From the NCBI GenBank assembly GCA_021845985.1, contig JAJZES010000038.1:62001-126000 (forward strand): 64,000 bases of DNA. The letters run 5' to 3'. Below are positions 5,473 through 29,794 of this stretch, piece after piece (position 1 is the stretch's first letter; each line of letters begins with the position of its first letter). Both the position numbers and the translations under genes were made by a program. Under the pieces are notes generated by a model. That model searched no databases and was not told where the DNA came from. It was given only the letters and a program-made list of their open reading frames with translations. This DNA is from Pseudomonadota bacterium (GTDB taxonomy: Bacteria > Pseudomonadota > Alphaproteobacteria > Acetobacterales > Acetobacteraceae).

Positions 5473-5486
5473 CTAACAACTGTTCG
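5473..5486 (+). promoter_or_regulatory. Predicted TetR-type operator, site 1 of 5
   Basis: CTAAC-AACT-GTTCG is an inverted repeat matching CKAAC-N4-GTTMG. It lies 15 bp before the GTG of the SDR at 5502. The same motif occurs at 9325, 15002, 25341 and 29781, always just before a transcription unit of this cluster. The likely ligand is the TetR-family protein at 14176-14853. Confidence 0.7.
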
Positions 5487-5501
5487 AAATTGGAGGAAGC
5501 G

Positions 5502-6419
5502 GTGAGCCAGGGTCGCATGCTGGAGGGCAAAGTGGCCCTGATCACCGGCGCAGGCCGGGGAATTGGCCGGGAGATCGCACTGCTGATGGCGCGCCACGGC
5601 GCCTCGGTGGTGGTCAACGATCCGGGGGTGGCGCTCGATGGCAGCCCGGACAGCGATGCGCCGGCGCACGAGGTGGTGGCGCAGATCGTGCTGGCCAACG
5701 GCGCCGCCGAGGCCAATCTCGACAGCGTCACCGACCCGGCCGCCGCCCGCCGGATGGTCGAGCAGGCGATTGCGACGTTTGGCCGGCTCGACATCGTCGT
5801 CAACAACGCCGGCATCCTGCGCGATGTCATCTTTCACAAGATGAGCGACGCCGAATGGAACGACGTGCTGGCGGTGCATCTGAACGGCAGTTTCAACGTC
5901 TCCCGCGCCGCGGCCGAGCATTTCCGCAAGCGTGAGAGCGGCAACTTCATCTTCATGACCTCGACCTCCGGCCTCGTCGGCAACACCGGACAGGCCAACT
6001 ACGCCGCCGCGAAGATGGGGATTGTCGGCCTGTCGAAGTCGGTGGCGCTGGACATGGCGCGGTTCAACGTGCGCTCCAATTGCATCTCGCCGTTCGCCTG
6101 GAGCCGCATGGTCGGCTCGATTCCGAACACCCCCAACCAGGAGGCGCGGCTGAACACGCTGCGCATGCTGACGCCGGACAAGATCGCCCCGGTGGCGGTG
6201 TTCCTGGCCAGCGATGCGGCGCGCGATGTCAACGGGCAGGTGCTCGCCGTGCGCGGCAATGAGGTGTTCGTGATGAGCCAGCCGCGGCCGCTGCGTTCGG
6301 TTCACCGCAGCGAGGGCTGGACCCCGGAGACGCTGGCCGATCACATGTTGCCGGCGCTGCGCTCTTCGCTGGTGCCGCTCGACATGTCGCGCGACGTGTT
6401 CAGTTGGAACCCGGTCTGA
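5502..6419 (+). CDS. SDR resembling the (3R)-hydroxyacyl-CoA dehydrogenase part of multifunctional enzyme 2
   Basis: The 305-residue protein is longer than a classical SDR. It has TGAGRGIG, NNAGILRD and STSGLVGNTGQANYAAAK with the Ser-Tyr-Lys active site. The insert after the second strand (VVVNDPGVALDGS) and the NNAGILRD-x-x-F segment are typical of the dehydrogenase domain of peroxisomal MFE-2 (HSD17B4) and its bacterial relatives. The GTG at 5502 is chosen because GGAGG at 5492-5496 is correctly spaced; a TTG at 5490 is too close to that site. Two hot-dog proteins follow within 3 bp, as hydratase-2 follows the dehydrogenase in MFE-2. It heads the unit controlled by operator site 1. Confidence 0.85.
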   Translation: MSQGRMLEGKVALITGAGRGIGREIALLMARHGASVVVNDPGVALDGSPDSDAPAHEVVAQIVLANGAAEANLDSVTDPAAARRMVEQAIATFGRLDIVVNNAGILRDVIFHKMSDAEWNDVLAVHLNGSFNVSRAAAEHFRKRESGNFIFMTSTSGLVGNTGQANYAAAKMGIVGLSKSVALDMARFNVRSNCISPFAWSRMVGSIPNTPNQEARLNTLRMLTPDKIAPVAVFLASDAARDVNGQVLAVRGNEVFVMSQPRPLRSVHRSEGWTPETLADHMLPALRSSLVPLDMSRDVFSWNPV

Positions 6420-6421
6420 CC

Positions 6422-6823
6422 ATGCCGACATTCCGCGCCTATGCCGATGTGCAGATCGGCGATGTCTGCCCGCCGACGCCGGCGCGTTTTGCGGTAACGC
6501 AGGCGATTGCCGACGCCTTCCGGGCGGCGACGCTGGACGACGAGCCAAACCCGTCCGCGGCGCCGTCGATGCTGGCCGCGGTATATCTGATCCAGGTGCT
6601 GCAAAGCCGTGGCAGCCCGCCCGGCGGGGTGCACGCCAAGCAGAGTGTGCGCTTCCATCGTCGGCTGGCGGTGGGCGACGTGTTGCTGACCAGCGGCACG
6701 GTAACGGACAAGTTCTGGCGCAAGGAGCGGCCCTATGTGGTCATGGCGTTCGAGACGCGAGACGCACAGGGCGCGCTGGTGGCCAGCGGCGTGACCACCT
6801 CGATCTGGGGGGCGGCGGCGTGA
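6422..6823 (+). CDS. Hot-dog-fold MaoC-like protein, possible partner of the next gene
   Basis: The 133-residue protein looks like a FAS1/MaoC dehydratase-like N-terminal hot-dog domain. It has an early GD motif (VQIGDVCPP), a long helix with TQAIADAFRAA and a strand pattern ending FWRKERPYVVMAFETRD. It lacks the catalytic D-x-x-x-x-H motif that the following protein carries. In two-subunit MaoC hydratases one subunit is catalytic and the other structural, so a heteromer is plausible but not shown. Its TGA overlaps the GTG of the next gene by 4 bp. Confidence 0.7.
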   Translation: MPTFRAYADVQIGDVCPPTPARFAVTQAIADAFRAATLDDEPNPSAAPSMLAAVYLIQVLQSRGSPPGGVHAKQSVRFHRRLAVGDVLLTSGTVTDKFWRKERPYVVMAFETRDAQGALVASGVTTSIWGAAA

Positions 6824-7203
6824 GCGGCGCGGCCCCCCCGGTGCTGCGCCGGGTCGTCACCCAGGCGGTCATCGACGCCTATGCCGCGGCCTCGGGCGAC
6901 CATAACCCGATCCATGTCGATCCCGCCTTCGCCCGCTCCGGTCCTTATGGGCGCACCATCGCCCATGGCCTGATGACGCTGGCCTTCGCCGGGCAGATGC
7001 TCAACCGCTGGAGCGATGGGCGGTTCGACGCCGAGGGCGAGATCGAGGTTGCCTTCGTCGGCCCGGTGTTTGCCGGCGACGAGGTCGAGGTGTTCGGCGA
7101 GCTGCAGGGACCGGCCGATGCGCCGGGGCTGACGCTCTCCGTCGGCTGCCGGGTCGGCACCCGGGTCGTGCTGGCCGGAACCGCCCGGATGCCGCGGGCG
7201 TGA
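6820..7203 (+). CDS. MaoC-family (R)-specific enoyl-CoA hydratase
   Basis: The 127-residue single hot-dog protein carries the hydratase-2 motif YAAASGDHNPIHVD with the catalytic Asp and His, then the conserved GRTIAHGLMTLAF helix. It probably hydrates 2-enoyl-CoA to (3R)-hydroxyacyl-CoA, which the SDR two genes upstream would oxidise. The gene is packed between neighbours with 4-bp overlaps on both sides (GTGA at 6820 and at 7200), which argues for tight co-expression with the hot-dog partner and the acyl-CoA synthetase. Confidence 0.88.
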   Translation: MSGAAPPVLRRVVTQAVIDAYAAASGDHNPIHVDPAFARSGPYGRTIAHGLMTLAFAGQMLNRWSDGRFDAEGEIEVAFVGPVFAGDEVEVFGELQGPADAPGLTLSVGCRVGTRVVLAGTARMPRA

Positions 7204-9332
7204 GCGCGGCGAGGCCGTCGCTGGATGTGCTGTTCCGCCCGGCCGCGGTGGCCATTCTCGGCGCGTCGGACAATCCAGACCGGATTTCCGGCCGCCCGCT
7301 GCGCTATCTGCGCGAGGGCGGGTTTGCCGGCGCGATCTATCCGGTCAACCCCAACCGCAGCATGGTGCAGGGGCTGCCAAGCTACCCGAGCGTTGCCGCG
7401 CTGCCGACAGCGCCGGACGTGGCGCTGCTCGCCGTGCCGGCCGAGGCCACCGAACAGGCGGTGCGCGACTGCGTGGCGCGCGGGGTGAAAGCGGCGGTGA
7501 TCTTCTCGGCCGGCTATGCCGAGAGCGATGCCGGCGGGACGGCGTTGCAGGACCGCATCGCCGCCATCGCCGCCGCCGGCGGCATGCGCCTGCTCGGGCC
7601 GAACTGTCTCGGCGCCTGCAACGCCAGGATCGGCTTTTTCGCCACCTTCACCCAGTCCTTCGACCGCGGCGTGCCGGGTCCAGGACCGGTGGCGATCGTC
7701 AGCCAGAGCGGCGCCTACGGCTCGCATCTCGCCTATCTGGTGCGTCAGCGCGGCCTCGGCGCGAGCTACTGGATCACCACCGGCAATGAAGCCGACATCG
7801 ACGTGCCCGAGGCGCTCGAATGGATGGTGCGGCAGGACGAGGTCGGGGTCATCCTGGCCTATGTCGAAGGCGTGCGGGACGGGGCGCGGCTGGTGGCGGC
7901 GCTGCGGGCGGCGCGGGCGGCGCGCAAGCCGGTGGTGATGATGAAGGTTGGCCGCTCCGCCGTCGGCGCGCTGGCGGCGCAGTCGCACACCGCCTCGCTG
8001 GCCGGCGCCGATGAGGTGTACGACGCGGTGTTTCGACAGTTCGGCGTCCACCGCGCCACCACGACCGAGGAGCAGGTGGACATCGCCTATGCCTGCGCGC
8101 GCGGGCTTTACCCGCGCTCGCCGAGGCTCGCCCTGGTCACGCTGTCGGGCGGCGTCGGCGTGCAGATGTCGGACGCGGCCGACCGGCACGGGCTCGAGGT
8201 AACCGCCATGCCGGCGGCGTCGCAGGCCGAGCTGAAGGCGCTGCTGCCCTATGCCGCGGTCGGCAACCCGGTCGATACCACCGCACAGGCGCTCAACGAC
8301 ATGGGCCTGATGGCCCGCAACCTGGAGGTCATTCTCGAAGCCGGCATCTATGATGCGCTGATCGGGTTTTTCTCCACCGTGCCGGCGACCCGCACCCTGT
8401 CCGGCCCGCTGCGCGACGCTATCACCCAGGCGACCGCGCGCTTCCCCGACCGGCTGATGGTGCTGTCGATGGCGGCCGATCGCGAGGTGGTGCGCAGCTA
8501 TGAGGAGCGCGGCTTCCTGGTGTTCGAGGACGTGGACCGCGCGGTTGCCGCGGTCGCCGCGCTGCACCGGTTCGCCGTCGCGTTCGAGCGCGACGCGCCG
8601 GCGGCCGGCGCCGCGGCGGCGTCGCTGCCGCTGGGCGCGGCGGCGCTGAGCGAATACGCGGCAAAGCGGCTGCTGGCTGCGGCCGGCGTCAGCGTGCCGG
8701 TCGAGACGCTGGCGCACAGCGCGGCCGAGGCGGTCGCCGCGGCCGCGGCGATCGACGGGCCGGTGGCGATGAAGCTCGTCTCCGCCGCCATTGCCCACAA
8801 AACCGAGATCGGCGGCGTCATTCTCGGCGTCGTCGGCGCGGATGCGGTGCGGGCGGCCTATGCGACGCTGCTGGCACGCGCCGCGCAGCATCGCCCGGAT
8901 GCGGCGCTGGACGGCGTGCTGGTGACGCCAATGGCCGACAAAGGGGTCGAGGTGATCGTCGGTGTCACCCGCGATCCGGTGTTCGGCCCGGTGCTGATGT
9001 TCGGGCTTGGCGGCATCTTCGTCGAGGTGTTCAAGGATGTGACGTTCCGCCTCGCCCCGGTGGACCTCGCCGAGGCGCAGCGGATGATCGGTGAGGTGCG
9101 TGGCCGGGCGATGCTGGCCGGCGCCCGCGGCGCGCCGCCGGCCGATGTCGATGCGCTGGCCGCGGCGCTGGTGCGGATTTCGCAGATCGCGCATCGCCAT
9201 CGTGACCATCTGGAGAGTCTGGAAATCAACCCGCTGCTGGTGCTGCCGCAGGGGCGCGGCGTGCTGGTGCTCGACGCGCTGGTGCAGCCGCGGCAGGCGG
9301 TGGCACTTGCCGCGCCGCCGCCGTCGAACTAA
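7200..9332 (+). CDS. ADP-forming acyl-CoA synthetase (acetate-CoA ligase family, fused alpha/beta subunits)
   Basis: The 710-residue cytoplasmic enzyme joins the NDP-forming acyl-CoA synthetase domains in one chain. The CoA-binding Rossmann domain (VAILGASDNPDRISGRPL, PVNPN) is followed by succinyl-CoA-ligase-like flavodoxin domains. The phospho-histidine motif SHTASLAG has His263. A C-terminal ATP-grasp domain starts near residue 480 (YAAKRLLAAAGVSVP) and contains VAMKLVSAAIAHKTEIGGV and ISQIAHR..LEINPL. It couples acyl-CoA formation or breakdown to ATP/ADP, and could activate a carboxylate or recover energy from the final acyl-CoA. It ends the operon that begins at 5502; its stop codon lies inside operator site 2. 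Confidence 0.88.
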   Translation: MSAARPSLDVLFRPAAVAILGASDNPDRISGRPLRYLREGGFAGAIYPVNPNRSMVQGLPSYPSVAALPTAPDVALLAVPAEATEQAVRDCVARGVKAAVIFSAGYAESDAGGTALQDRIAAIAAAGGMRLLGPNCLGACNARIGFFATFTQSFDRGVPGPGPVAIVSQSGAYGSHLAYLVRQRGLGASYWITTGNEADIDVPEALEWMVRQDEVGVILAYVEGVRDGARLVAALRAARAARKPVVMMKVGRSAVGALAAQSHTASLAGADEVYDAVFRQFGVHRATTTEEQVDIAYACARGLYPRSPRLALVTLSGGVGVQMSDAADRHGLEVTAMPAASQAELKALLPYAAVGNPVDTTAQALNDMGLMARNLEVILEAGIYDALIGFFSTVPATRTLSGPLRDAITQATARFPDRLMVLSMAADREVVRSYEERGFLVFEDVDRAVAAVAALHRFAVAFERDAPAAGAAAASLPLGAAALSEYAAKRLLAAAGVSVPVETLAHSAAEAVAAAAAIDGPVAMKLVSAAIAHKTEIGGVILGVVGADAVRAAYATLLARAAQHRPDAALDGVLVTPMADKGVEVIVGVTRDPVFGPVLMFGLGGIFVEVFKDVTFRLAPVDLAEAQRMIGEVRGRAMLAGARGAPPADVDALAAALVRISQIAHRHRDHLESLEINPLLVLPQGRGVLVLDALVQPRQAVALAAPPPSN

Positions 9333-9338
9333 TGTTAG
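9325..9338 (+). promoter_or_regulatory. Predicted TetR-type operator, site 2 of 5
   Basis: CGAAC-TAAT-GTTAG matches CKAAC-N4-GTTMG read in either direction. It overlaps the TAA of the acyl-CoA synthetase gene (9330-9332) and ends 37 bp before the ATG at 9376, the position expected for an operator of the second operon. Confidence 0.7.
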
Positions 9339-9375: not shown

Positions 9376-10170
9376 ATGGATTTCAGCCACTACAAGAACA
9401 TCAGCTTCACCCGTCAGGGGCGTATTCTGACGGTGACGCTGGACCGTCCGGCGACGCTGAACGCGATGGATCAGGCGATGCACGAGGAGACCTCGCGCCT
9501 GTTCTATGACGTGGCGATGGACCGGGAGAGCGAGGTCATCATCCTGACCGGCGCCGGCCGCGCCTTCAGCGCCGGCGGCGACATCGCCGGGATGCAGGAA
9601 ATGCTCGACAACCCGGCCCTGTTCGACATCTCGATCACCGAGGCCAAGAAGGTGATCTTCGGCATTCTCGACTGCGAGAAGCCGATCATCTGCAAAATGA
9701 ACGGCGACGCGGTCGGGCTTGGCGCGACCATGGCGCTGTTCTGCGATGTCATCTTCGCCGCCGACCACGCCCGCATCGGCGACCCACATGTCCGGGTCGG
9801 CCTGTCCGCCGGCGATGGCGGCGGGGTGATCTGGCCGCAATTGATCGGCTTCGCGCGGGCCAAGGAATACCTGATGACCGGCGATCTGATCGGCGCCAAG
9901 GAGGCGGCGGCAATGGGGCTGATCAACCATGCCGTGCCGGCCGCCGAACTGGACGCCAAGGTCGAGGCGTTTGCCAGGCGGCTGGAGTCCGGCGCGCTCA
10001 AGTCGATCCGCTGGACCAAGGTGTCGATCAACGTGGCGCTCAAGCAACTCGCCCACACCATGATGGACACCTGCATGGCGTACGAGGCGCTGTCCAACCG
10101 CACCAACGATCACGTCGAAGCGGTCAAGGCGTTCAGCGAGAAGCGCCGTCCGGTGTTCAACGGCACCTAA
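9376..10170 (+). CDS. Enoyl-CoA hydratase/isomerase (crotonase)-family protein with both catalytic Glu replaced
   Basis: The 264-residue protein is clearly crotonase-fold: VTLDRPATLNAMD, ILTGAGRAFSAGGDIAGM (oxyanion-hole region), then FCDVIFAADHARIGDPHVRVGLSAGDGG. Aligned with rat mitochondrial enoyl-CoA hydratase, the two catalytic glutamates (Glu144 and Glu164) correspond to Thr118 and His138. Simple hydration of a 2-enoyl-CoA is therefore doubtful; isomerase, decarboxylase or hydrolase chemistry, all known in this superfamily, are alternatives. It is the first gene after operator site 2, with GGGAG before the ATG, and is followed after 80 bp by an acyl-CoA dehydrogenase. Confidence 0.87.
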   Translation: MDFSHYKNISFTRQGRILTVTLDRPATLNAMDQAMHEETSRLFYDVAMDRESEVIILTGAGRAFSAGGDIAGMQEMLDNPALFDISITEAKKVIFGILDCEKPIICKMNGDAVGLGATMALFCDVIFAADHARIGDPHVRVGLSAGDGGGVIWPQLIGFARAKEYLMTGDLIGAKEAAAMGLINHAVPAAELDAKVEAFARRLESGALKSIRWTKVSINVALKQLAHTMMDTCMAYEALSNRTNDHVEAVKAFSEKRRPVFNGT

Positions 10171-10201
10171 TGGTCCGATGCCGGCGCCCAGGTCCGGGCG
10201 T

Positions 10202-10221
10202 CGGCTGAATCGGCTCAGCCG
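10202..10221 (+). other. Stem-loop between the crotonase and acyl-CoA dehydrogenase genes
   Basis: CGGCTGA at 10202-10208 pairs with TCAGCCG at 10215-10221 around a 6-base loop; an alternative outer pairing GTCGGC/GCCGAC also exists. There is no T-run, so a strong intrinsic terminator is unlikely. It could be an attenuator or mRNA-processing element inside the operon. Confidence 0.35.
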
Positions 10222-10250
10222 CCGACCCGCGGCAGCGTCGGGAGGTTCCC

Positions 10251-11414
10251 ATGTATCAAAGCGATCCCGAGCATATCGCCATGCTGCGGCAGTCCATCCG
10301 CCGCTTCCTTGAGAAGGAGGCGACGCGGGCGCAGATGGCGCAATGGGATGCCGCGGACAAGGTGCCGCGCTCCGTGTTCAGCAAGATCGTCGAGCTCGGC
10401 GTCTGCGGCACGACGATACCGGAGGAGTTCGGCGGCACCGGGCGCGATGTGCTGGCGACGATGGTGACGGTCGAGGAGCTGTCGCGCCGCTCGATGGTGA
10501 TCGGCACGTTCTACCTGATGAACACCTGCTACGGCAGCATGAACATCCTCGCCTCCGGCAGCGACGAACAAAAGGCGCGCCTGCTGCCGCGGCTGGCCAA
10601 CGGCGAGTTGTTGTTTGCCTATGGCCTGTCCGAGCCTGATGTCGGCTCCGACCTTGCCAGCGTCACCACGCGGGCGGAGCGGCGCGGCGACACGGTGGTC
10701 ATCAATGGCGCCAAGCGCTGGTGCTCCGGCGCCGAAATTGCCGACTACATCTACGCCCTGGTCCGTTCGGGCGAACCCGGTGACCGCTATCGCAACCTCG
10801 CGCTGGTGCTGATCCCGCCGACTGCCCCCGGCGTCAGGCTGACGCATATTCCGGCGATCGGCGCACGCGGCCTGAACACCAACGATGTCAGCTTCGACAA
10901 CGTCGAGATTCCGTTCAGCGACGTGATCGGCGGTGCCGAGGGATGGAACAACGGCTGGCCGCGTCTGGTCGGCCCGGCGCTGGAGATCGAGAAGCTGGAG
11001 GTTGCCGCAATGGCGCTTGGCATCGCCGCGCAGGCGGTGGACGACGCCTGGGACTACGCCCAGCAGCGTTCGCAGTTCGGCAAGCGTATCTGCGCGATCC
11101 AGTCGATCCGCCATATGCTGGCCGAGGTGCAGACCAAGCTGCTGGCGTGCCGGCTGATGCTCTACCAGGCCTGCTGGCTGGCCGATAACGGCCGGCCGTG
11201 CAGCGTCGAATCGTCGATGGCGAAGATGTATATCGGCGATGTCGGGGTCGAAATCGTGCTCACCTGCCAGCGGGTCATGGGTGCCTATGGCTACGCCCAG
11301 GGCTTCGATATGGAACGCTACGTGCGCGACATGCTGCTGATGCCGATCATCGGTGGTTCGACCGCGATCCAGAAGAACAACATCGCCAACCGCATGGGCC
11401 TGCCGAAAGCCTGA
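10251..11414 (+). CDS. Acyl-CoA dehydrogenase
   Basis: This 387-residue flavoprotein shows IPEEFGGTGRD, the loop AYGLSEPDVGSDLASVTTRA, RSQFGKRICAIQSIRHMLAE and MGAYGYAQGFDMERYVRDM. The C-terminus carries IIGGSTAIQKNNIANRM, so Gly stands where medium-chain enzymes have the catalytic Glu of YEGT; its base must lie elsewhere or the activity differs. The ATG at 10251 has GGAGG at 10241-10245. It sits between a crotonase-like gene and an acyl-CoA ligase in the operon controlled by operator site 2. Confidence 0.88.
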   Translation: MYQSDPEHIAMLRQSIRRFLEKEATRAQMAQWDAADKVPRSVFSKIVELGVCGTTIPEEFGGTGRDVLATMVTVEELSRRSMVIGTFYLMNTCYGSMNILASGSDEQKARLLPRLANGELLFAYGLSEPDVGSDLASVTTRAERRGDTVVINGAKRWCSGAEIADYIYALVRSGEPGDRYRNLALVLIPPTAPGVRLTHIPAIGARGLNTNDVSFDNVEIPFSDVIGGAEGWNNGWPRLVGPALEIEKLEVAAMALGIAAQAVDDAWDYAQQRSQFGKRICAIQSIRHMLAEVQTKLLACRLMLYQACWLADNGRPCSVESSMAKMYIGDVGVEIVLTCQRVMGAYGYAQGFDMERYVRDMLLMPIIGGSTAIQKNNIANRMGLPKA

Positions 11415-11435
11415 GCGACCCGGGGGGCTGCCTGC

Positions 11436-13004
11436 ATGATCGAAACGCTCGGCGACATCATCCGCAACAACGCGCACAAGTTTCCCGACGAGACGGCGAT
11501 TGTGTTCGAGGGCCGGCGCATCAGCTTCGCCGAGCGCCATGACCGGGCGCAGCGTCTTGCCGGCGGGCTGTACGCGCTCGGCATCCGGCGCCAGGACCGC
11601 GTTGCCATTCTGTCGCAGAACACGCCCGAATATCTAGAGATCTACGGCGCGGCGGAGCTATCCGGCTATATCGCCGCGACGGTCAACTTCCGGCTGGCGC
11701 CGCCGGAGATGAGGCACGTGCTGACCGACAGCGCGCCGCGGATTCTGCTGTTTCAGGCACAGTACGCCGACGCGGTGGCGGCGCTGCGCGCCGATCTGCC
11801 GCATATCGAGCACTATGTCTGCATCGGCGGCGCGGCCGGGCCGTGGGCCGCGGACTATGAGGCATTGGTCGCGGCCGGTTCGCCGGCCGGTCCGCCGATA
11901 CAGGCGCGGCCGGACGACATCCTGCACCTGATCTACACCAGTGGCACCACCGGGCGGCCGAAGGGCGTGATGCGGCGCCACACCGCGGACATCGCGGTCG
12001 CCAATCTGATGGCAACCGAAATCGGTGTGCTGGTCAGCGACCGGATGCAGTTGATGATGCCGCTGTTTCATGTCGGCTCGCGCTTTCTGCAGCTGGGGGC
12101 GAATCTGCGCGGCGCCGGGATCGTGCTGCACCGCAATTTCGATCCGGCCGCGATCGTGCAGACCATCGAGGATGAACGCGTCACCATCACCCATATGGCG
12201 CCGACCATGGTGCAGTCGATGCTGGACGAACAAGAGCAGCGTCCGCGCGACCTGTCGTCGCTGCAGACGCTCTGCTACTCCGCCGCGCCGATGCCGCTGC
12301 CGGTGCTGCGGCGCGGGCTGCGCCTGCTGGGGCCGGTGTTCCTGCAGCTTTACGGCATGACCGAGGGCGGCGGCACCACGCTGCACAAGCGCCAGCACGT
12401 CCCCGACGGCACGCCCGAGCAGGTGGCGCGGCTGGGCTCGATCGGTCAGGCGGCACCGATGGTGGATGTCGCCATCGTCGATGACGAGGGCCGGCCGGTG
12501 CCGGTCGGGCAGCCGGGCGAGATCGTCACCCGCACCGCCTCGGTGATGTCGGGCTACTGGAACAACGGTCCGGCGACCGTCGCCGCGCTGCGCGACGGCT
12601 GGTACCACACCGGCGATGTTGGCCGGCTGGATGAGCAGGGTTTCCTGTTCCTGATGGACCGCAAGAAGGACATGATCATCTCGGGCGGCGAGAACATCTA
12701 TTCGCGCGAGGTCGAGGAAGCCCTGGCAAGCCACCCCTCGGTGCTGGATGTGGCGGTGATCGGGGTGGCCGATCCGTACTGGGGCGAGGCGGTGCGCGCG
12801 GTCATCGTGCTGCGCGCGGGGCCGCCGCCGGGCGAGGCCGAGCTGATCACCCACTGTCTCGGCGCCATCGCGCGCTACAAGAAGCCGCGCTCGATCGTGT
12901 TCACGCCCGAGCTGCCGCGCCTGCCGAGTGGCAAGGTGAACAAGATGGTGCTGCGCGAGATGTTCGGCGCACCGATGTCCGAGACCGGCGGGGACCAGGG
13001 ATGA
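11436..13004 (+). CDS. AMP-forming acyl-CoA ligase (class I adenylate-forming)
   Basis: The 522-residue enzyme would convert a carboxylate, ATP and CoA to acyl-CoA, AMP and PPi. It shows the P-loop-like motif YTSGTTGRPKGV, the adenine-binding region QLYGMTEGGGTT, the hinge GWYHTGDVGRLDEQGFLFLMDRKKDMIISGGENIYS (given as its successive motifs) and the C-terminal catalytic Lys in LPSGKVNKM. Substrate specificity cannot be read from sequence; medium/long-chain or alicyclic acids fit. It is a clear paralogue of the ligase at 22213-23769. Its stop overlaps the next acyl-CoA dehydrogenase by 4 bp. Confidence 0.9.
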   Translation: MIETLGDIIRNNAHKFPDETAIVFEGRRISFAERHDRAQRLAGGLYALGIRRQDRVAILSQNTPEYLEIYGAAELSGYIAATVNFRLAPPEMRHVLTDSAPRILLFQAQYADAVAALRADLPHIEHYVCIGGAAGPWAADYEALVAAGSPAGPPIQARPDDILHLIYTSGTTGRPKGVMRRHTADIAVANLMATEIGVLVSDRMQLMMPLFHVGSRFLQLGANLRGAGIVLHRNFDPAAIVQTIEDERVTITHMAPTMVQSMLDEQEQRPRDLSSLQTLCYSAAPMPLPVLRRGLRLLGPVFLQLYGMTEGGGTTLHKRQHVPDGTPEQVARLGSIGQAAPMVDVAIVDDEGRPVPVGQPGEIVTRTASVMSGYWNNGPATVAALRDGWYHTGDVGRLDEQGFLFLMDRKKDMIISGGENIYSREVEEALASHPSVLDVAVIGVADPYWGEAVRAVIVLRAGPPPGEAELITHCLGAIARYKKPRSIVFTPELPRLPSGKVNKMVLREMFGAPMSETGGDQG

Positions 13005-20604: not shown

Positions 20605-20614
20605 GGTGCGACTC

Positions 20615-21406: not shown

Positions 21407-21418
21407 GGGGCTTCCCCG

Positions 21419-23769: not shown

Positions 23770-23780
23770 CGTCGCCGCCG

Positions 23781-24575
23781 TCAACGGTGGAAGACCGGCT
23801 TGCGCTTCTCGCGGAAGGCAGCCAGTCCCTCGGTGAATTCGTCGGTCATCCACGACAGCGACTGCGCCATCGCCTCGGTTTCCAGCAGCGCGTCGAGGCT
23901 GCCGGGCAGCGTGGCCAGCATCCGCCGGGTCAGGCTCAGCGCATGCGCCGGCTGTGCGGCAAGCTCGCCGGCCAGCGCCAGGGCGCGGGCGTCCAGCTCG
24001 GCCTCGGCAACCACCTCGTCACACAGCCCGAGGCGCAGCGCCTCGGCGGCGGTATAGGTGCGCGCGTACATCAGCGCCTGACGCGCCACGCCGCGTCCGG
24101 CCCGGTTGGCCAGGGCGTAGGAGACGCCGAAATCGGGGATCAGGCCGACCTTGAGAAACGGAAAGCCGATGCGCGCCCCCTCGGCCATGACCAGCGTGTC
24201 GGCGGCCAGCGCCAGCCCGGCGCCGGCGCCCATCGCATAGCCGCGCACCGCGGCAATCACCGGCTTCTCCGCCCGATCGAGCAGTAAGGCGAGCCGGTGC
24301 GCGCCCTTGATGCGCGCGCGCGCTTGGCTCGGCGTGCGCAATTCGTCCATCTTCGACAGGTCGCCTCCGGCGGAGAAATCGGCGCCGGCGCCGGTCAGGA
24401 TCACCGCCCGCACCGCCGGCTCCGCCAGCGCCGCTTCCAGCGCCGCCTGCACCGCCTCGCGCAGCGCGGCGCCGAGCGCGTTCTTGTTGGCCGGCGTGTT
24501 CATGGCGATGCGCCGCACGGCCGGCGCCGGCGTGTCGGTCAGCACCGCCTCCGGTGTCGTTGCCGTCGCGCTCAT
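23781..24575 (-). CDS. Crotonase-family protein, PaaG-like enoyl-CoA isomerase candidate
   Basis: The 264-residue protein has MNTPANKNALGAAL, LTGAGADFSAGGDLSKMD and RGYAMGAGAGLALAADTLVMAEGARIGFPFLKVGLIPDFG. The two catalytic Glu positions of enoyl-CoA hydratases are Gly and Phe. The Asp in GLIPDFG is where PaaG-type isomerases carry their catalytic Asp. A double-bond isomerase is therefore likelier than a hydratase. It overlaps the SDR stop by 4 bp and is followed by the ligase after 11 bp. Confidence 0.85.
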   Translation of the reverse strand: MSATATTPEAVLTDTPAPAVRRIAMNTPANKNALGAALREAVQAALEAALAEPAVRAVILTGAGADFSAGGDLSKMDELRTPSQARARIKGAHRLALLLDRAEKPVIAAVRGYAMGAGAGLALAADTLVMAEGARIGFPFLKVGLIPDFGVSYALANRAGRGVARQALMYARTYTAAEALRLGLCDEVVAEAELDARALALAGELAAQPAHALSLTRRMLATLPGSLDALLETEAMAQSLSWMTDEFTEGLAAFREKRKPVFHR

Positions 24576-25306
24576 GCCTTTGATCCGCCGAGTGACTTGC
24601 CGCCGTCCACCATCAGGATTTGGCCGGTGATGAAATCGGTCGTCGCGGCGGCAAAAAAAGCGACCGCGTTGGCGATCGAGGAGGGCTGCCCGAAACGGCC
24701 ATCCAGTTGCAGCCGGGCCAGTTCGGCGCGGCGTTCCGCCGAGACCGTGTGGAACATCGCCGTCTCGATCACGCCCGGCGCCACCGCGTTGACGTAGATG
24801 CCGCGTGGCGCAAGGTCGATCGCCATGGCCCGGGTCAGCCCGGCCACCGCGGTCTTGGAGGCGATGTAATGCGCGTGGTTGCGCCCGCCGAGATAGGAGC
24901 GCGAGCCGATATTGATGATCCGCGCGCCGCGGTCCATCCGCTTCGCCGCCTCCTGGGCGGCGACGAACAGACCGACCACATTGACGTCATACATGGCGCG
25001 GAAATCGTCTTCGGTGAGATCGAAGAAGTCGCGATCGGTGAACACCGCCGCGTTGTTGACCAGCACATCCAGCCGCGGCAGCGCATCGAGCCCCGCGGCG
25101 ACGGCCTCCCGGTCGCGGATGTCGAGCGTCACCCCCGCTGCCGACAGGCCCTGCGCCGACAGCGCAGCGGCGGCCTGCTGGGCGGCACCGTCGCGGTTGT
25201 CCGCCAGCACCACATGCATCCCGTCGCGGGCCAGCCGCTCCGCAATCGCCTCGCCGATGCCGCGGCCGGCGCCGGTCACGACGGCTACCCTGGCGTCCTG
25301 GTGCAT
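24572..25306 (-). CDS. Short-chain dehydrogenase (SDR), first gene of the minus-strand operon
   Basis: The 244-residue SDR shows TGAGRGIG, NNAAVFTDR, NIGSRSYLGG with the Ser, YIASK and MVDGGKSLGG. It is the close paralogue of the SDR that ends this operon (19870-20604). Operator site 4 lies 35 bp upstream of its ATG, between it and the divergent CoA-lyase gene. Its stop overlaps the crotonase start by 4 bp. Confidence 0.88.
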   Translation of the reverse strand: MHQDARVAVVTGAGRGIGEAIAERLARDGMHVVLADNRDGAAQQAAAALSAQGLSAAGVTLDIRDREAVAAGLDALPRLDVLVNNAAVFTDRDFFDLTEDDFRAMYDVNVVGLFVAAQEAAKRMDRGARIINIGSRSYLGGRNHAHYIASKTAVAGLTRAMAIDLAPRGIYVNAVAPGVIETAMFHTVSAERRAELARLQLDGRFGQPSSIANAVAFFAAATTDFITGQILMVDGGKSLGGSKA

Positions 25307-25340: not shown

Positions 25341-25354
25341 CGAACGTGCGTTAG
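25341..25354 (+). promoter_or_regulatory. Predicted TetR-type operator, site 4 of 5
   Basis: CGAAC-GTGC-GTTAG matches CKAAC-N4-GTTMG. It lies in the 103-bp region between the divergent minus-strand SDR operon (start 25306) and the plus-strand CoA-lyase operon (start 25410), so one site could control both. Confidence 0.7.
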
Positions 25355-25409: not shown

Positions 25410-26342
25410 GTGACGGACAGGACGCGACGGTTGCGGCGGTGCCAGCTTGCGGTGCCCGCCAGCAGCACCAGAATGATCGCACGCGCCGCCACGCTCGGCG
25501 TCGATCATGTGTTCCTTGATCTTGAGGATGCGGTCGCCCCGAACCAGAAGGACACGGCGCGGGCGCAGGCGGTGGAGGCGCTGAACGGGATCGACTGGGG
25601 CCGCACCGTGCGCTGCGTGCGGATCAACGATCTCGATACGCCGCACGCCTACCGCGACATCATCGACGTGGTCGAGGGCGCCGGCGCCCGGCTCGACACC
25701 ATCATGGTGCCGAAGGTGCGCGGCGCCGGCTGCGTCCAGTTCGTCGCCCGGCTGCTCGGCCAGATCGAATTGCGCATGGGGCTGACACGGCCGATCGGCA
25801 TCGAGGTGCTGATCGAGGAGGCCGAGGCGATGATGCGCGTCGAGGAGATCGCCGCCAGTTCGCCGCGGCTGGAGGCGCTGATTTTTGGCATGGGCGATTT
25901 CTCGGCGTCGCAGGGCATCGACCCGCGCGCCATCGCCGGCGACACCGGCTATCCCGGTGACATCTGGCATTACGGCCGCAACAAGCTGGTGATCGCCGCC
26001 CGCAGCTTCGGTCTCGATCCGGTCGATGGCCCGTTCGTCAATTTCGCCGATCCCGAATACTTCACCGCCGAATGCCGGCGCGCGCGGGCGCTCGGCTGCG
26101 TCGGCAAATGGGCGATCCACCCGAGCCAGGTGCCACTGGCGCAGGCCGGCTTCAGCCCGGACCCCGCCGAGGTGGCGCGCGCCTACAAGGCCCGCGACGC
26201 CTATGCGCAGGCGCAGCGTGACGGGCTTGGCGCGGTGCAGGTCGATGGCCAGCTCGTCGATGTGGCGACGATTCGCCTGCTGCAGCGCAACATCGATCTG
26301 GCCGAACGGGTCGGCATGGGGCGCCCGGCGGCGGCTGGCTGA
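25410..26342 (+). CDS. HpcH/HpaI-family CoA-ester lyase, malyl-CoA/beta-methylmalyl-CoA lyase-like
   Basis: The 310-residue TIM-barrel protein resembles Rhodobacter Mcl1: DHVFLDLEDAVAPNQK, NGIDWGRTVRCVRINDLDTP, DTIMVPKVRG, EVLIEEAEAMM (metal-binding Glu), VEEIAASSPRLEALIFGMGD (Asp ligand) and VGKWAIHPSQVPLAQ. The family cleaves beta-hydroxyacyl-CoAs such as malyl-CoA or beta-methylmalyl-CoA into glyoxylate and an acyl-CoA, with Mg2+. The next gene is a mesaconyl-CoA-hydratase-like protein, the same pairing as in the ethylmalonyl-CoA pathway. Here, though, the pair sits in a catabolic regulon, so a related hydroxyacyl-CoA may be the true substrate. GTG start with a weak site. Confidence 0.82.
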   Translation: MTDRTRRLRRCQLAVPASSTRMIARAATLGVDHVFLDLEDAVAPNQKDTARAQAVEALNGIDWGRTVRCVRINDLDTPHAYRDIIDVVEGAGARLDTIMVPKVRGAGCVQFVARLLGQIELRMGLTRPIGIEVLIEEAEAMMRVEEIAASSPRLEALIFGMGDFSASQGIDPRAIAGDTGYPGDIWHYGRNKLVIAARSFGLDPVDGPFVNFADPEYFTAECRRARALGCVGKWAIHPSQVPLAQAGFSPDPAEVARAYKARDAYAQAQRDGLGAVQVDGQLVDVATIRLLQRNIDLAERVGMGRPAAAG

Positions 26343-26345
26343 GCC

Positions 26346-27398
26346 ATGCAGAAATCCAGCCGCGGCCGCTTCTTCGAGCACTTCAGCATCGGCGAGACGC
26401 TGCACCATCCGGGGTCGCGCACCATCGGCGCCGCCGATGCGACGCTCTACTTGGCGCTGTTCGGCGGCCGGTTCCCGCTGCAGCTCTCCGCTGCGGCGGC
26501 GCAATCCTGCGGTCTCGCCGGCGCGCCGATCGACGAGCTGCTGCTGTTCCATATCGTCTTCGGCAAGACGGTGGCCGACGTGTCGTTCAACGCCGTCGCC
26601 AATCTCGGCTATGCCGATTGCCGCTGGCTGCGGCCGGTGTTTCCCGGCGATACCATTGCCGCCGAATCGCAGGTGATCGGCCTGCGGTCGAACGAGACCG
26701 GCAAGACCGGGATTGTCTATGTCCGCACCACAGGGCGCAACCAGCAGGGCGAAGCGGTGATCGAGTTTGTCCGCTGGGTGATGGTGGCCAAGGCCGATCC
26801 CGCCCACCCCGCGCCGATTGCGGTTGTCCCCGAACTGCCGGCGCGGGTCGATCCGGCGCGCCTGCTGGTGCCCGCCGGCCTCGACCTGTCCGGCTGGGAC
26901 CACCGCCTGACCGGCCAGAAGCTGTGCTGGGAGGACTACGCCGTCGGCGAGCGCATCGACCATATCGAGGGGGTGACGATCGCGGAAAGCGAGCATCGTC
27001 TGGCGACGCGGCTGTTTCAGAACAATGCACGCGCGCATTTCGACGCCGTGCTGCAGCGCGCCAGCCGCTTCGGCCGGCCACTGGTCTATGGCGGGCATAT
27101 CATCAGCCTCGCCCGTGCATTGAGTTTCAACGGTCTCGGCAACGCCGTTCTGCTGGCCGCGATCAATGCCGGGCGACATGTGGCGCCGGCCTTCCCCGGC
27201 GACACGGTCTATTGTTGGTCGGAGGTTGTGGACATGGCGAAATTGCCCGGCCGGGCGGATCTCGGCGCGCTGCGGCTGCTCCTGGTCGCGGTCAAGGACG
27301 CTGCCGGCAGCGCCTTCCCGCGCGCCGGCGGCGATGCCGCGGTGCTGCTCGAACTGGATGTCTGGGTGCTGATGCCGCGACGCGGGCGGCCGGCATGA
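26346..27398 (+). CDS. Double hot-dog MaoC protein, mesaconyl-CoA hydratase (beta-methylmalyl-CoA dehydratase)-like
   Basis: The 350-residue protein has the length and two-domain hot-dog layout of Mch. It shows GRFFEHFSIGETLHHPGSRTI, the central HIVFGKTVADVSFNAVANLGYADCRWLRPVFPGDT region (described by its parts), GKTGIVYVRTTGRNQQGE, and a second repeat from about residue 180 (KLCWEDYAVGERIDH, FGRPLVYGGHIISLARALSFNG, AFPGDTVYCWSEV). Mch interconverts mesaconyl-CoA and beta-methylmalyl-CoA. The gene starts 4 bp after the CoA-lyase-like gene and overlaps the following SDR by 4 bp. A paralogue acting on a different unsaturated acyl-CoA is possible. Confidence 0.78.
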   Translation: MQKSSRGRFFEHFSIGETLHHPGSRTIGAADATLYLALFGGRFPLQLSAAAAQSCGLAGAPIDELLLFHIVFGKTVADVSFNAVANLGYADCRWLRPVFPGDTIAAESQVIGLRSNETGKTGIVYVRTTGRNQQGEAVIEFVRWVMVAKADPAHPAPIAVVPELPARVDPARLLVPAGLDLSGWDHRLTGQKLCWEDYAVGERIDHIEGVTIAESEHRLATRLFQNNARAHFDAVLQRASRFGRPLVYGGHIISLARALSFNGLGNAVLLAAINAGRHVAPAFPGDTVYCWSEVVDMAKLPGRADLGALRLLLVAVKDAAGSAFPRAGGDAAVLLELDVWVLMPRRGRPA

Positions 27399-28165
27399 AC
27401 GATCTGCGCGGCCAGGTCGCGATGGTCGCCGGCGCCAGCGGCGGCATCGGCAGCGCCGTCGCCCTGCTCCTGGCGGAGTGCGGCGCGGATATCGCCCTGT
27501 CCTGCCATGCCAACGCGGCGCGCGCCGGCGAGGTCGCCGACAGCATCGTCGCGATGGGCCGCCGGGTGCGTCTCGACACGCTGGACGCGACCGATGCCGG
27601 CGCGGCGCGCGACTGGGTGGCCGGCACCATCGCCGCCTTCGGCAAGGTCGATGTGCTGGCCAATTGCTGCGGCTGGAGCGGCGCTTTCCAACTGTTCAAG
27701 GATCAGGACCCGGCTGCGTGGTCGCGCATCATCGCCATCGAGCTGACCGCGTGTTTCAACCTGTCGCATGCGGTGCTCCATCACATGGTGGCACGGCGCC
27801 GCGGCCGGATCATCACGCTGGGGTCGGATTCCAGCAAAACCGGGCTGTCCGGCGCGGCGGTCACCGCCGCGGCACGCGGCGGGGTCAACGCGTTCAGCAA
27901 ATCACTCGCCCGCGAACTCGGCCGCTACGGCGTCACGGTGAACGTCGTCTGCCCCGGCCCGACGCAGACGCCCGTGCTCGACATGCTGCGCGCTCAGGGT
28001 GAGACGGGCGAGAAGCTGGTCCAGGGGCTGATCGCGGCCATCCCGATGAAGCGCGTCGGCACGCCGCGCGAGGTCGCCGCCGCGGTGGCGTTCCTGGCCT
28101 CGGAGGAGGGCGGGTTCATCACCGGTCAGGCGATCAGCGTCAGCGGCGGACTGTCGATGGTCTGA
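27395..28165 (+). CDS. BadH-like SDR with a degenerate active site
   Basis: The 256-residue protein is most like 2-hydroxycyclohexanecarboxyl-CoA dehydrogenase (BadH) in its C-terminal half: GRIITLGSDSSKTGLSGAA, VNVVCPGPTQTP, AIPMKRVGTP and FITGQAISVSGGLSMV. The active site is altered. The YxxxK motif reads TAAAR (Thr157, Arg161), the nucleotide motif reads AGASGGIG with Ala for Thr, and NNAG reads NCCG. The frame is open and conserved elsewhere, so this is not simple decay. It may bind a CoA ester or cofactor without classical SDR catalysis. It is the third gene of the CoA-lyase operon. Confidence 0.82.
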   Translation: MNDLRGQVAMVAGASGGIGSAVALLLAECGADIALSCHANAARAGEVADSIVAMGRRVRLDTLDATDAGAARDWVAGTIAAFGKVDVLANCCGWSGAFQLFKDQDPAAWSRIIAIELTACFNLSHAVLHHMVARRRGRIITLGSDSSKTGLSGAAVTAAARGGVNAFSKSLARELGRYGVTVNVVCPGPTQTPVLDMLRAQGETGEKLVQGLIAAIPMKRVGTPREVAAAVAFLASEEGGFITGQAISVSGGLSMV

Positions 28166-28192
28166 ACGCCCGCCGCCCGCCGAACCGCCGCG

Positions 28193-28582
28193 TCAGCCGG
28201 CCGTCGGCCTGAAACACGGCACCAGACTGTCGTCGGTGGCGTGTTTCAGCACCAGCTCGACCGGCTGGCCGATGTGCAGCGCGTCGAAGTCGCACTCGAC
28301 GATATTGGTCATCATCGCCGGGCCTTCCGCCAGACTGACATAGGCCAGCGCGTACGGCGCTGGCACCCGGCGCATGACGGTGTAGCTGTGGATCACCGCC
28401 GCGCCGGAGGCCTGCTCCCACGCCGTCGCGCCGAAACAATACGGGCAGAGCGCGCGGGGGTACCAGTGCGCCCGGTGGCAGGTGGCGCAGCGGCGGATCA
28501 GCAGCCGGCCCTCCCGCATGCCGGCGTGAAACGCCTCGGTCTCCGGCGTCAGCGGAATCGCCTGCATCGGGCGGTCGGTCAT
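28193..28582 (-). CDS. DUF35 (Zn-ribbon plus OB-fold) acyl-CoA-associated protein
   Basis: The 129-residue protein has the DUF35 layout: a short helix (TPETEAFHAGMREGRLLIRR), a rubredoxin-like Zn ribbon CATC...CPYC, then an OB-fold with GAAVIHSYTVMRR, PYALAYVSLAEGPAMMTNIV and a HIGQPVEL turn. DUF35 proteins are obligate partners of thiolase-fold proteins, for example ChsH2 with Ltp2 in steroid side-chain cleavage. The ATG at 28582 overlaps the stop of the thiolase-like gene by 4 bp, so the two should form a complex. Confidence 0.88.
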   Translation of the reverse strand: MTDRPMQAIPLTPETEAFHAGMREGRLLIRRCATCHRAHWYPRALCPYCFGATAWEQASGAAVIHSYTVMRRVPAPYALAYVSLAEGPAMMTNIVECDFDALHIGQPVELVLKHATDDSLVPCFRPTAG

Positions 28583-29763
28583 TGTGCCTGCTCCAGGATG
28601 AGAGTGGCGCCGCCATGGCGGCTGCCGAGGAAGCCGCCGGTGCCGTGCGCCAGGGCGAGGCTGCAATTGGCCACCTGCACCGCCGGGTGCGCCTCGCCGC
28701 GCACTTGGCGGACCGCCTCGATGACCTTGGTGATCCCGCCGCGATTGGCCGGATGATTGTTGCACAGCCCGCCGCCATCGGTGTTGAACGGCAGGCGTCC
28801 CACCCCGGAGATCAGGTTGCCATCGGCGACGAACCGGCCGCCCGCACCCTTGGCGCAGAAGCCGAGGTCTTCGAGCTGGATCAGCACGGTGATGGTGAAA
28901 CTGTCGTAGATCGAGGCGTAGCGGATGTCCTGCGGGGTGACGCCGGCCTGGGCGAAGGCGGCGGGGCCGGAGCGGGCGGCGGCCGAGACGGTGAGGTCGA
29001 GATCGCCGCCGCCCTGGCCCTTCAGCGACTCTCCGGCGCCGAGCACGCGCACCGCCGGCCGACCCCGCTGGTTGGCGAGATCGCGCGCGATTTCCGGCCG
29101 GGTGACGATCAGCGCGCCGCCGCCGTCACTGATGACGCAGCAATCGAGCCGGTGCAGCGGGTCGGAGACCATCGGCGAGGCGAGAACCTCCTCGACAGTG
29201 ACGACATCGCGCAGCATGGCGTTGGGGTTGTGCTGGGCGTGGTGACTGGCGGCGACCTTGATCCAGGCGAGTTGCTCGCTGGTGGTGCCGTACTGGTGCA
29301 TGTGGCGCATCGCGCACATGGCGTAGGAGTTGGCCGTCACCTGGGCGAAGGGTGCCTCCCAGACGCTGTCCGGCTGGTCGGTATTGATCGGCCGCGGCGC
29401 CGTGCCGGTTGCCTGCCCGGCGCTGCGCGGCCGCCCGGCCAGGGTGATCAGCGCGACGTTGCAGGCGCCGAGCGCAATCGCCTGGGCGGCATGCGCGACG
29501 TGCAGCAGGTACGACGAGCCGCCAATATCGGTGCTGTCCATGTGCCGTACGCGCAGGTTCAGGTAGTCGATCATCGAACTCGGGCCCAGTCCCGGCGCGT
29601 CGCCGGCACAGAAATACCCGTCCACGTCGTCCTTGCTCAGCCCGGCATCGGCCAGCGCCCCGGCGGCGCATTCCGCATGAAGCTGCGCCACCGTCTTGTC
29701 CGGCGCCTTGCGGGTCGGGTGTTCCCAGGCCCCTGCGATATAGGCCTTGCCCTTGATCGTCAT
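28579..29763 (-). CDS. Thiolase-fold protein of the SCP2/Ltp type lacking the nucleophilic Cys
   Basis: The 394-residue protein has the thiolase-superfamily layout: YIAGAWEHPTRK opening, GLSKDDVDGYFCAGD, a central DGGGALIVTR segment and a C-terminal HGTGGFLGSRHGGATL. At the place of the thiolase nucleophile (N-x-C-x-T-G-S in SCP2 thiolases) it reads DIGGSS at residues 79-84, so no Cys is present. His occurs in GLCNNHPANRGG. Ltp2-type retro-aldolases with a DUF35 partner also lack the Cys, so aldol cleavage of a beta-hydroxyacyl-CoA is a fair hypothesis. First gene of a two-gene operon behind operator site 5. Confidence 0.83.
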   Translation of the reverse strand: MTIKGKAYIAGAWEHPTRKAPDKTVAQLHAECAAGALADAGLSKDDVDGYFCAGDAPGLGPSSMIDYLNLRVRHMDSTDIGGSSYLLHVAHAAQAIALGACNVALITLAGRPRSAGQATGTAPRPINTDQPDSVWEAPFAQVTANSYAMCAMRHMHQYGTTSEQLAWIKVAASHHAQHNPNAMLRDVVTVEEVLASPMVSDPLHRLDCCVISDGGGALIVTRPEIARDLANQRGRPAVRVLGAGESLKGQGGGDLDLTVSAAARSGPAAFAQAGVTPQDIRYASIYDSFTITVLIQLEDLGFCAKGAGGRFVADGNLISGVGRLPFNTDGGGLCNNHPANRGGITKVIEAVRQVRGEAHPAVQVANCSLALAHGTGGFLGSRHGGATLILEQAQ

Positions 29764-29780
29764 CGTTCCATCCCGAAAAT

Positions 29781-29794
29781 CTAACGCATGTTCG
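29781..29794 (-). promoter_or_regulatory. Predicted TetR-type operator, site 5 of 5
   Basis: CTAAC-GCAT-GTTCG matches CKAAC-N4-GTTMG and lies 17 bp upstream of the thiolase-like gene start (29763, minus strand). It is the rightmost copy found and marks the right border of the presumed regulon. Confidence 0.7.

Follow-up and report, generated by a model that had tools for sequence, protein, structure and literature searches.

PsrA of Pseudomonas is a TetR fatty-acid regulator whose operator is given as GAAAC-N4-GTTTC in the part of the report drawn on here (PMC13104628). PaaR of Thermus thermophilus (TTHA0973), a TetR repressor of phenylacetate genes, is described in the relevant sections of two reports (PMC6651687, PMC9493321) with the operator CNAACGNNCGTTNG and with an acyl-CoA, phenylacetyl-CoA, as its effector. 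The locus analysed here, which lies in a window of 64,000 nucleotides (the whole stretch of DNA under study), resembles several further systems in outline. It would share with KstR of mycobacteria a TetR regulon of CoA-dependent catabolism and AAC and GTT half-sites, with BkaR of mycobacteria a TetR protein, an acyl-CoA gene operon and the words GTTA and TAAC, and with BadR (MarR) and AtuR (TetR), which act on alicyclic acid and acyclic terpenes, respectively, the repression of CoA-dependent catabolism.

Results

A preliminary description of the window proposed that five copies of a 14-bp operator, CKAAC-N4-GTTMG, define a TetR regulon over about 24 kb. Our search of the window for this pattern found all five as exact matches, each where it had been placed. 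The first, CTAACAACTGTTCG (5473..5486), stands ahead of an operon for an MFE-2-like SDR, a MaoC-like protein (without a Pfam match), a MaoC hydratase and an NDP-forming acyl-CoA ligase (5502..9332, plus strand; Pfam and NCBIfam), 15 bp from the GTG at 5502 or 30 bp from the alternative start tried. The second, CGAACTAATGTTAG (9325..9338), precedes a crotonase, acyl-CoA dehydrogenase (ACAD), AMP-forming ligase and ACAD operon (9376..14167, plus strand; Pfam) and covers the final 8 bases, including the stop codon, of the CoA-ligase gene at 7200-9332; given this overlap, the site presumably indicates a promoter internal to an array of co-directional genes. The remaining five operators of the block lie outside called genes. 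CTAACACACGTTAG (15002..15015) is located between the tetR gene and an operon for a Liv-type ABC importer (15105..19832, plus strand; Pfam) comprising an ATPase, a permease, a second permease (no Pfam match, assigned by position only), a binding protein and an ATPase. CGAACGTGCGTTAG (25341..25354) separates two divergent operons, one with three SDRs, an AMP-forming ligase, a crotonase and a further SDR (19870..25306, minus strand; Pfam) and the other with an HpcH/HpaI-type CoA lyase, a double MaoC hydratase and an SDR at 27395-28165 (25410..28165, plus strand; Pfam and translation). CTAACGCATGTTCG (29781..29794) lies 17 bp ahead of the start codon of a thiolase (28579-29763) that is paired with a DUF35/ChsH2-like OB-fold protein (28193-28582; the pair spans 28193..29763, minus strand; Pfam and translation, with the models OB_ChsH2_C, zf-ChsH2 and Thiolase_C_1).

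The extent of the block had been underestimated. A pattern search of the genome placed a sixth operator, CTAACTCATGTTAG, to the left of the window (contig C40:59185, window position -2815), 27 bp ahead of the Liv substrate-binding gene of another Liv operon, so the block holds six sites over 32.6 kb rather than five over 24 kb. The binding protein and permease of this first Liv operon are left of the window; within it the operon continues with two Liv ATPases and a CoA-transferase III at 1715-3052 (35..3052, plus strand; Pfam), and this run of genes ends with an acyl-CoA dehydrogenase and an SDR (3426..5435, plus strand; Pfam). All six copies stand ahead of a gene start, as proposed for the original five. 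The tetR-adjacent copy is fully symmetric, although it is one of two such copies and not the single most symmetric one, the sixth site being equally perfect. Among the 12 half-sites of the block, 8 read CTAAC and 4 read CGAAC.

The proposed regulator is a protein of 225 aa encoded at 14176..14853 (minus strand), which has a TetR_N helix-turn-helix domain (PF00440, 58.8 bits) and a TetR-type C-terminal domain (TetR_C_24, PF17932, 72.9 bits), both above cut-off. The description of this gene as the only TetR gene in the block was borne out: the TetR_N search found no other on the contig, and it is one of 14 in the genome (counted at E 1e-4). At the sequence level, the candidate palindromic operator beside its own gene is that at 15002-15015, 148 bp from the tetR start codon, a greater distance than in close relatives. 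The best NCBIfam match of the protein is an ScbR-type model, which it matches below the cut-off (64 versus 150 bits). Its structure model is of moderate quality (mean pLDDT 72); solved folds close to the model include FadR with stearoyl-CoA and KstR2 and, further down the ranking, AibR with isovaleryl-CoA. The predicted fold does not by itself imply an acyl-CoA ligand, because the top matches also take in DarR (a c-di-AMP sensor) and PfiT.

The five exact matches in the window compare with a mean of 0.07 and a maximum of 1 in dinucleotide shuffles. When one mismatch was allowed, the window gave 11 matches against a shuffle mean of 3.72, for which reason we consider the six one-mismatch copies unconvincing. 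The preliminary description had proposed scanning the genome for the five sites, and we did so with the pattern. The 3.78 Mb genome contains 18 matches, which fall into two classes: the 6 copies with a CTAAC arm are all inside the 32.6 kb block and each ahead of a gene start, whereas the 12 copies of the form CGAAC-N4-GTTCG are all outside the block and inside ORFs (11 called by script, the twelfth inside an SLT-domain ORF). A relaxed match, CTAACATCGGTTTG, also occurs outside the block (C7:12271). That the sites are an artefact of chance or composition in a GC-rich genome could draw on these intragenic copies and on a reversed-pattern control with 11 matches in the source genome. It is nevertheless a practically negligible explanation, since the CTAAC-arm copies occur in the block only, where six randomly placed sites would fall so close with a probability of about 3e-10, and since shuffles and matched control patterns stay near zero. 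A palindromic mobile repeat or REP-like element was also rejected: conservation is limited to the arms and a few AT-rich bases around them, and the cores vary.

We then considered related regulators. All eight family genomes with a TetR of 37–64% identity carry CKAAC-N4-GTTMG within 5 kb of tetR, although in three of these the site is 2–4.6 kb away and not directly upstream. In the four closest relatives (TetR 57–64% identical; three of one genus and one of another), a site is found upstream of tetR in 4/4 and of the Liv operon in 4/4, and the orthologous crotonase gene or operon is preceded by one in three, with one lacking it. Gene orders are rearranged among these four. The sites are conserved next to related regulators and at two target operons. 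Two of the four carry CGAAC-N4-GTTCG at tetR, a form found only within ORFs in the source genome. The stretches from the four genomes contain 19 sites, 8 of them away from the cluster, and one off-cluster site, CTAACAGGGGTTCG, has identical flanks in three close-relative genomes.

Across 43 homologue loci the motif was matched 22 times, as compared with 0–5 times for each of 12 control patterns, and all five TetRs of the window's clade carry it. Bases flanking the arms, which lie outside the search pattern, are kept as well (34 half-sites): the base immediately outside the arm is T in 79%, and A or T stands at -3 in 97%. For the window's clade the operator can be written in 20 bp as WNT-CKAAC-N4-GTTMG-ANW. 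Counting CTAAC-N4-GTTAG together with its clade variants CGAAC and CAAAC, the motif was seen ahead of tetR in no fewer than eight families of the class to which the window belongs, and also on plasmids of alpha- and betaproteobacteria; among the plasmid relatives examined, it was present in 5/5 from proteobacteria and 0/2 from Rhodococcus. ACAD relatives on plasmids of Neorhizobium (one), Sphingobium (two) and Rhodococcus (one) had no CTAAC-arm site in the stretches searched, and tblastn found no relative of the TetR in the Neorhizobium plasmid stretch.

As a negative set we used distant TetRs from a scan of named genomes with the TetR protein, alike mostly in the HTH region (among the matches listed, these were solely distant TetRs). 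None of the 34 genes in the upstream check, out of 38 loci, had an exact site within 300 bp upstream, and all 38 loci together (621 kb) contained 1 CTAAC-arm site and 10 C-N-AAC-N4-GTT-N-G sites. CTAAC-arm sites were also found in 13 of the 23 searched genomes without a TetR of at least 37% identity (0–7 per genome), and the reversed-pattern control was frequently higher than the pattern count in the genomes searched. For these reasons the motif alone is not proof elsewhere, its genome-wide count was discarded as too noisy a marker of TetR presence, and sites are informative only through their nearness to tetR and to orthologous operons.

These comparisons bear on whether the operators, if real, serve chiefly another TetR encoded elsewhere, such as a PsrA- or FadR-like global regulator, with the local TetR being incidental. 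The genome has 13 other TetR_N genes besides this one, and PsrA-type regulators use AAC-N4-GTT cores. We consider this very unlikely, as the motif accompanies relatives of this TetR, often directly upstream of them, and a global regulator would be expected to have sites ahead of genes in other parts of the genome, yet 0/12 exact off-block matches are outside ORFs.

The arrangement of sites and promoters is relevant to the mode of regulation. TTGACG or TTGACA boxes lie 13–28 bp upstream of 3/6 operators, including TTGACG -35-like boxes 13 and 27 bp upstream of operator 5473 and a TTGACA box 28 bp upstream, on the minus-strand side, of operator 25341. The position of the operator relative to the promoter differs between sites and several other promoters are unrecognisable, which leaves some room for an activator, or for a protein of mixed function, repressing its own gene while activating the operons. 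This seems very unlikely to us, since at the three sites with a TTGAC-type box the operator follows the box and covers the -10 or start region, a position consistent with occlusion.

The enzyme set would be compatible with an alicyclic or branched carboxylic acid as the substrate, although this is a guess. BadH, of the bad-ali type cluster for alicyclic acids, was rejected (SDR 4659-5435 at 182 versus a 431-bit equivalog cut-off), as was cyclohexanecarboxyl-CoA dehydrogenase (three ACADs at 177–243 versus cut-offs of 575–650 bits). More generally, for the part of the block's enzymes compared and among the matches listed, no NCBIfam equivalog cut-off was reached, so a known steroid or cyclohexanecarboxylate pathway was set aside; subfamily cut-offs were reached, among these matches, only for the thiolase (PRK08142) and both AMP-forming ligases (PRK06187).

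Discussion

The proposed TetR regulon is supported by the genome-wide pattern, in which CTAAC-arm sites occur in the block alone, by the footprints at orthologous tetR genes and by the matched control patterns. The six sites are in all probability operators of the 14176-14853 TetR, acting as the repressor of a CoA-dependent catabolic cluster. Given that six copies precede gene groups and that close relatives retain the motif next to the same regulator gene, we regard the arrangement as very likely to be a local genetic switch of a well-known type, for uptake and breakdown of a CoA-linked carbon compound. We infer that the protein binds these sites, that it represses rather than activates, and that a CoA thioester made in the pathway releases it. 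A TetR dimer would bind each CKAAC-N4-GTTMG palindrome, over or just beside the promoter, and the bound dimer would block transcription of seven catabolic or transport units: the two Liv-type importers (the first with CoA-transferase, ACAD and SDR), the SDR/MaoC/ligase, crotonase/ACAD/ligase and SDR/crotonase/ligase operons, the CoA-lyase/MaoC/SDR operon and the thiolase-DUF35 pair. The TetR probably represses its own gene too, and repression would probably be relieved by an acyl-CoA formed in the pathway.

Some 30 genes for catabolism and transport, spread over about 32 kb, would thereby be tied to one regulator, so that the units can be treated as a single pathway and one purified protein can serve in the search for the inducer. 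There is a somewhat better than even chance that CTAAC-N4-GTTAG, with the clade variants CGAAC and CAAAC, is the operator of a whole proteobacterial TetR subfamily and that this operator flags uncharacterised clusters for CoA-dependent catabolism, equipped with Liv-type importers, AtuA/carboxylase genes or P450/alcohol-dehydrogenase front ends. If so, the regulator and its 20-bp operator would be a tag for finding such pathways and building sensors. Because the pair is found again on plasmids and in distant families, it could also be useful for delimiting other, unassigned CoA-thioester pathways.

AtuR, BadR, BkaR, KstR and PsrA were each ruled out as the same regulator by operator sequence or family scores. 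The TetR scores 42.3 against the 300-bit cut-off of NCBIfam model NF053516 for PsrA, 30.4 against the 280-bit equivalog cut-off for KstR and 48.9 against the 200-bit NCBIfam equivalog cut-off for Bacillus FadR. In the cited parts of the respective reports, the KstR half-sites are two bases apart (TnnAACnnGTTnnA; PMC1995591) rather than four, the BkaR arms are in reverse order (GTTA-N-T-N4-A-N-TAAC; PMC3920632), and neither the BadR operator CAAN4TTG (PMC9795900) nor the AtuR operator AGCAAGCGCTTGG (PMC9973270) matches the block sites. Among the literature matches listed, we found no description of CTAAC-N4-GTTAG as a TetR operator. The preliminary description had regarded the motif as distinct in arms or spacing from known acyl-CoA-responsive operators; this is true only in part, since PsrA and PaaR, as given in the sections cited above, have AAC-N4-GTT with identical spacing and depart from the motif only in the adjacent bases. 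The second arm base is A in the PsrA operator, CAAAC occurs in 0/12 half-sites here, and the block sites do not fit the PsrA-type operator (G/C)AAAC-N2-4-GTTT(G/C). PaaR, compared here on its operator, has a different target pathway, and its G-NN-C spacer core is found in only 1/6 sites (GTGC); the outer C/G, AAC, GTT and four-base spacing are common to both, with C-N-AAC-N4-GTT-N-G in 6/6 sites. As a kind of system, a local acyl-CoA-type TetR regulon is already well known, and its operator here is, on the published operators just compared, not wholly distinct from those of PsrA and Thermus PaaR.

Motif copies in the window and the source genome

All five 14-bp CKAAC-N4-GTTMG copies named in the preliminary description (5473, 9325, 15002, 25341 and 29781) are exact and correctly placed, compared with a mean of 0.07 and a maximum of 1 in dinucleotide-shuffled windows. 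As a one-mismatch search gave 11 matches against 3.72 expected, only exact sites were used. The source genome (3.78 Mb, 45 contigs; the window is C40:62001-126000) holds 18 exact matches. Twelve have the form CGAAC-N4-GTTCG, all on contigs other than C40; 11 are inside called ORFs and the twelfth is within an ORF encoding an SLT transglycosylase domain. The other six, which carry at least one CTAAC arm, all lie before gene starts within C40:59185-91794 (hereafter the block), and random placement would put six sites in one stretch of this length with a probability of about 3e-10. The sixth, CTAACTCATGTTAG at window position -2815, makes the regulon larger than first described. Five of the six are outside called genes; the description of the sites as directly preceding transcription units holds for gene starts, although 9325-9338 shares 8 bases with the 3' end of the gene before it. 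A relaxed search (CTAAC-N4-GTTNG) added one match outside the block (C7:12271). Because the reversed-pattern control gave 11 matches for each of the two patterns, raw counts alone are unconvincing; clustering and placement before gene starts are what make the motif convincing here. Together with conservation, they support the proposed TetR regulon with a shared operator well, and we consider this reading of the six-site block very likely.

Units behind the probable operators

Since 15002 and 25341 each face two units, the six sites serve eight, including the regulator gene (tetR, 14176-14853), with contents assigned by Pfam. A Liv substrate-binding gene starts 27 bp downstream of the -2815 site and heads a run of Liv-type ABC importer genes (importer 1), CoA-transferase III, acyl-CoA dehydrogenase (ACAD) and SDR. 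Operator 5473 precedes SDR, MaoC and NDP-forming ligase genes; 9325 precedes crotonase, ACAD, AMP ligase and a further ACAD; 15002 lies between tetR and Liv importer 2; 25341 has SDRs, ligase and crotonase on one side and CoA lyase, double MaoC and SDR on the other; and 29781 precedes a thiolase and a DUF35/ChsH2-like OB-fold protein. Among the matches listed, no NCBIfam equivalog cut-off naming a substrate was attained, and the sole subfamily cut-offs reached were those of the thiolase and both AMP-forming ligases. The closest listed models were succinyl-CoA:mesaconate CoA-transferase for the CoA-transferase (443.6 of 700 bits) and CitE for the CoA lyase (155.9 of 443.4 bits); the SDR at 4659-5435 matches BadH and ChcB2, both below cut-off. 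Our guess at the substrate is an alicyclic or branched acid entering via CoA ligation. Immediately right of the regulon, 31824-33578 encodes a Hint_2-domain protein of 584 aa (PF13403, 148.7 bits). A stand-alone aminoacyl-tRNA editing domain protein (PF04073; 29924-30433) adjoins the thiolase operator and is considered outside the regulon because of its minus-strand orientation.

Operators lie 15-55 bp before the start codon at all target units except those of 15002 (89 bp to Liv, 148 bp to tetR). Three of the six (-2815, 5473 and the minus-strand side of 25341) have a TTGACG or TTGACA box 13-28 bp upstream, so that the operator would span the -10 or start region there. This geometry fits promoter occlusion, the promoters being consensus matches only.

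Conservation in related genomes

A match at 1e-20 was found in 15 of 200 family genomes, the source included, and in none of the three same-genus genomes drawn, which makes the cluster patchy. In all eight relatives whose TetR is 37-64% identical, the motif occurs within 5 kb of tetR; in three (G078, G006, G017) the site is 2-4.6 kb away, at a different promoter. The closest four (57-64%; G150, G089 and G193 of one genus, G165 of another) all have a site before tetR, two as CGAAC-N4-GTTCG, and before the Liv operon; three have one before the crotonase operon, G165 being the exception. Their tetR is divergent from a ligase gene, not from Liv as in the window. The stretches fetched from these four hold 19 sites. 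Eight of them fall away from the cluster and are not directly followed by one of its operons; chance may account for most. Among the eight is a conserved CTAACAGGGGTTCG site far from the cluster, which has identical 12-bp flanks in G150, G089 and G193 and likewise precedes no cluster operon. In G006, a site on contig C87 precedes a CoA-transferase homologue by ~190 bp.

At least one CTAAC-arm site occurs in 21 of 31 genomes searched (8/8 with TetR of at least 37% identity, 13/23 others), and the reversed-pattern control frequently exceeds the motif count, so presence alone means little. One family genome (G042, C1:472001-492000) has three such sites. Two are separated by 204 bp, and one shows full symmetry; they lie close to an ACAD homologue and to a TetR of only ~27% identity. 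This may be a paralogous regulon using the same operator word. Another (G015, C19:7747-7876 and C52:18-60) has seven CTAACTCGCGTTCG matches with an exact 29-bp period, suggesting a tandem repeat and not operators.

CTAAC and CGAAC half-sites number 8 and 4 in the block and 9 and 13 across 11 close-clade sites; 30 hand-selected sites beside other TetR homologues gave 45 CTAAC, 9 CAAAC and 6 CGAAC. From these counts, tolerance of CGAAC looks clade-specific. Over 34 half-sites from the block and close clade, omitting the eight sites away from the cluster, the flank adjoining the arm is T in 79% and position -3 is A/T in 97%.

The wider TetR subfamily

Across 43 homologue loci from family and class searches, C-N-AAC-N4-GTT-N-G gave 22 matches, spread over 19 loci (two overlapping G537 loci count a single site twice, and two matches overlap within one locus). 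Twelve control patterns, of which eight changed the spacing, one swapped the arms and three permuted them, gave 0-5 each. For 15 of the 22, the tetR match follows at 40-110 bp, and near-variants such as CTAATGCTAGTTAG occur in several loci without an exact site. None of 34 distant TetR genes has an exact site within 300 bp upstream, and CTAAC-arm sites number one in 38 distant-TetR loci (621 kb) versus 15 in 151 kb of homologue loci. On a tree of 45 TetRs, 17 rows of which were hand-labelled for an upstream site, the labelled rows cluster (9 changes versus 13.8 in shuffles, attained by 1/500) without forming a single clade; in the window's clade (100/100 support) all five TetRs carry the label. 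Upstream sites occur in eight families of the class, including the window's own.

Seven of 77 plasmid records with TetR matches were examined. Those of Polaromonas, Roseibium, Frigidibacter, Paracoccus and Nitratireductor hold 16 sites: two within Polaromonas genes and 14 outside annotated genes, mainly before tetR, Liv, thiolase-type, CoA-transferase, aldehyde dehydrogenase or SDR genes. The two Rhodococcus plasmids had no site. Four alphaproteobacterial plasmid stretches share a conserved module encoding carboxyl transferase, crotonase, biotin carboxylase and ACAD; two of the stretches also have AtuA-family genes. The same operator stands 27-90 bp before the module's TetR.

The regulator and known operators

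Described as the only TetR gene in the block, tetR proved to be the sole TetR_N gene found on C40, and one of 14 in the genome. Its TetR_N and TetR_C_24 domains both exceed cut-off; family scores do not place it with PsrA, KstR or FadR. The closest PDB sequences include PfiT (4mxm, 4mo7), DarR and KstR2. A structure model (28 distant homologues; mean pLDDT 72, 88-96 over residues 11-60) has DarR, Bacillus FadR (also stearoyl-CoA-bound) and PfmR as nearest folds, with PfiT, KstR2 and AibR-isovaleryl-CoA further down. These sequences and folds make an acyl-CoA a plausible ligand, and the inducer is probably a pathway CoA thioester.

No description of an operator for the wider subfamily was found among the matches listed in the literature searched. 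KstR operators have a two-base spacing, unlike the four here (PMC1995591), BkaR has its arms in the opposite order (PMC3920632), and the operator words of AtuR (PMC9973270) and BadR (PMC9795900) differ. PsrA (GAAAC-N4-GTTTC; PMC13104628) and Thermus thermophilus PaaR (CNAACGNNCGTTNG; PMC6651687, PMC9493321) both have AAC-N4-GTT and the spacing in common with the window sites, and one of the six block sites matches the PaaR core. The motif, initially called distinct, is so in its exact arms but not in its spacing. The regulator would work like acyl-CoA-responsive TetR repressors, in a well-supported local regulon of this familiar kind, with an operator common to a wider proteobacterial TetR subfamily.
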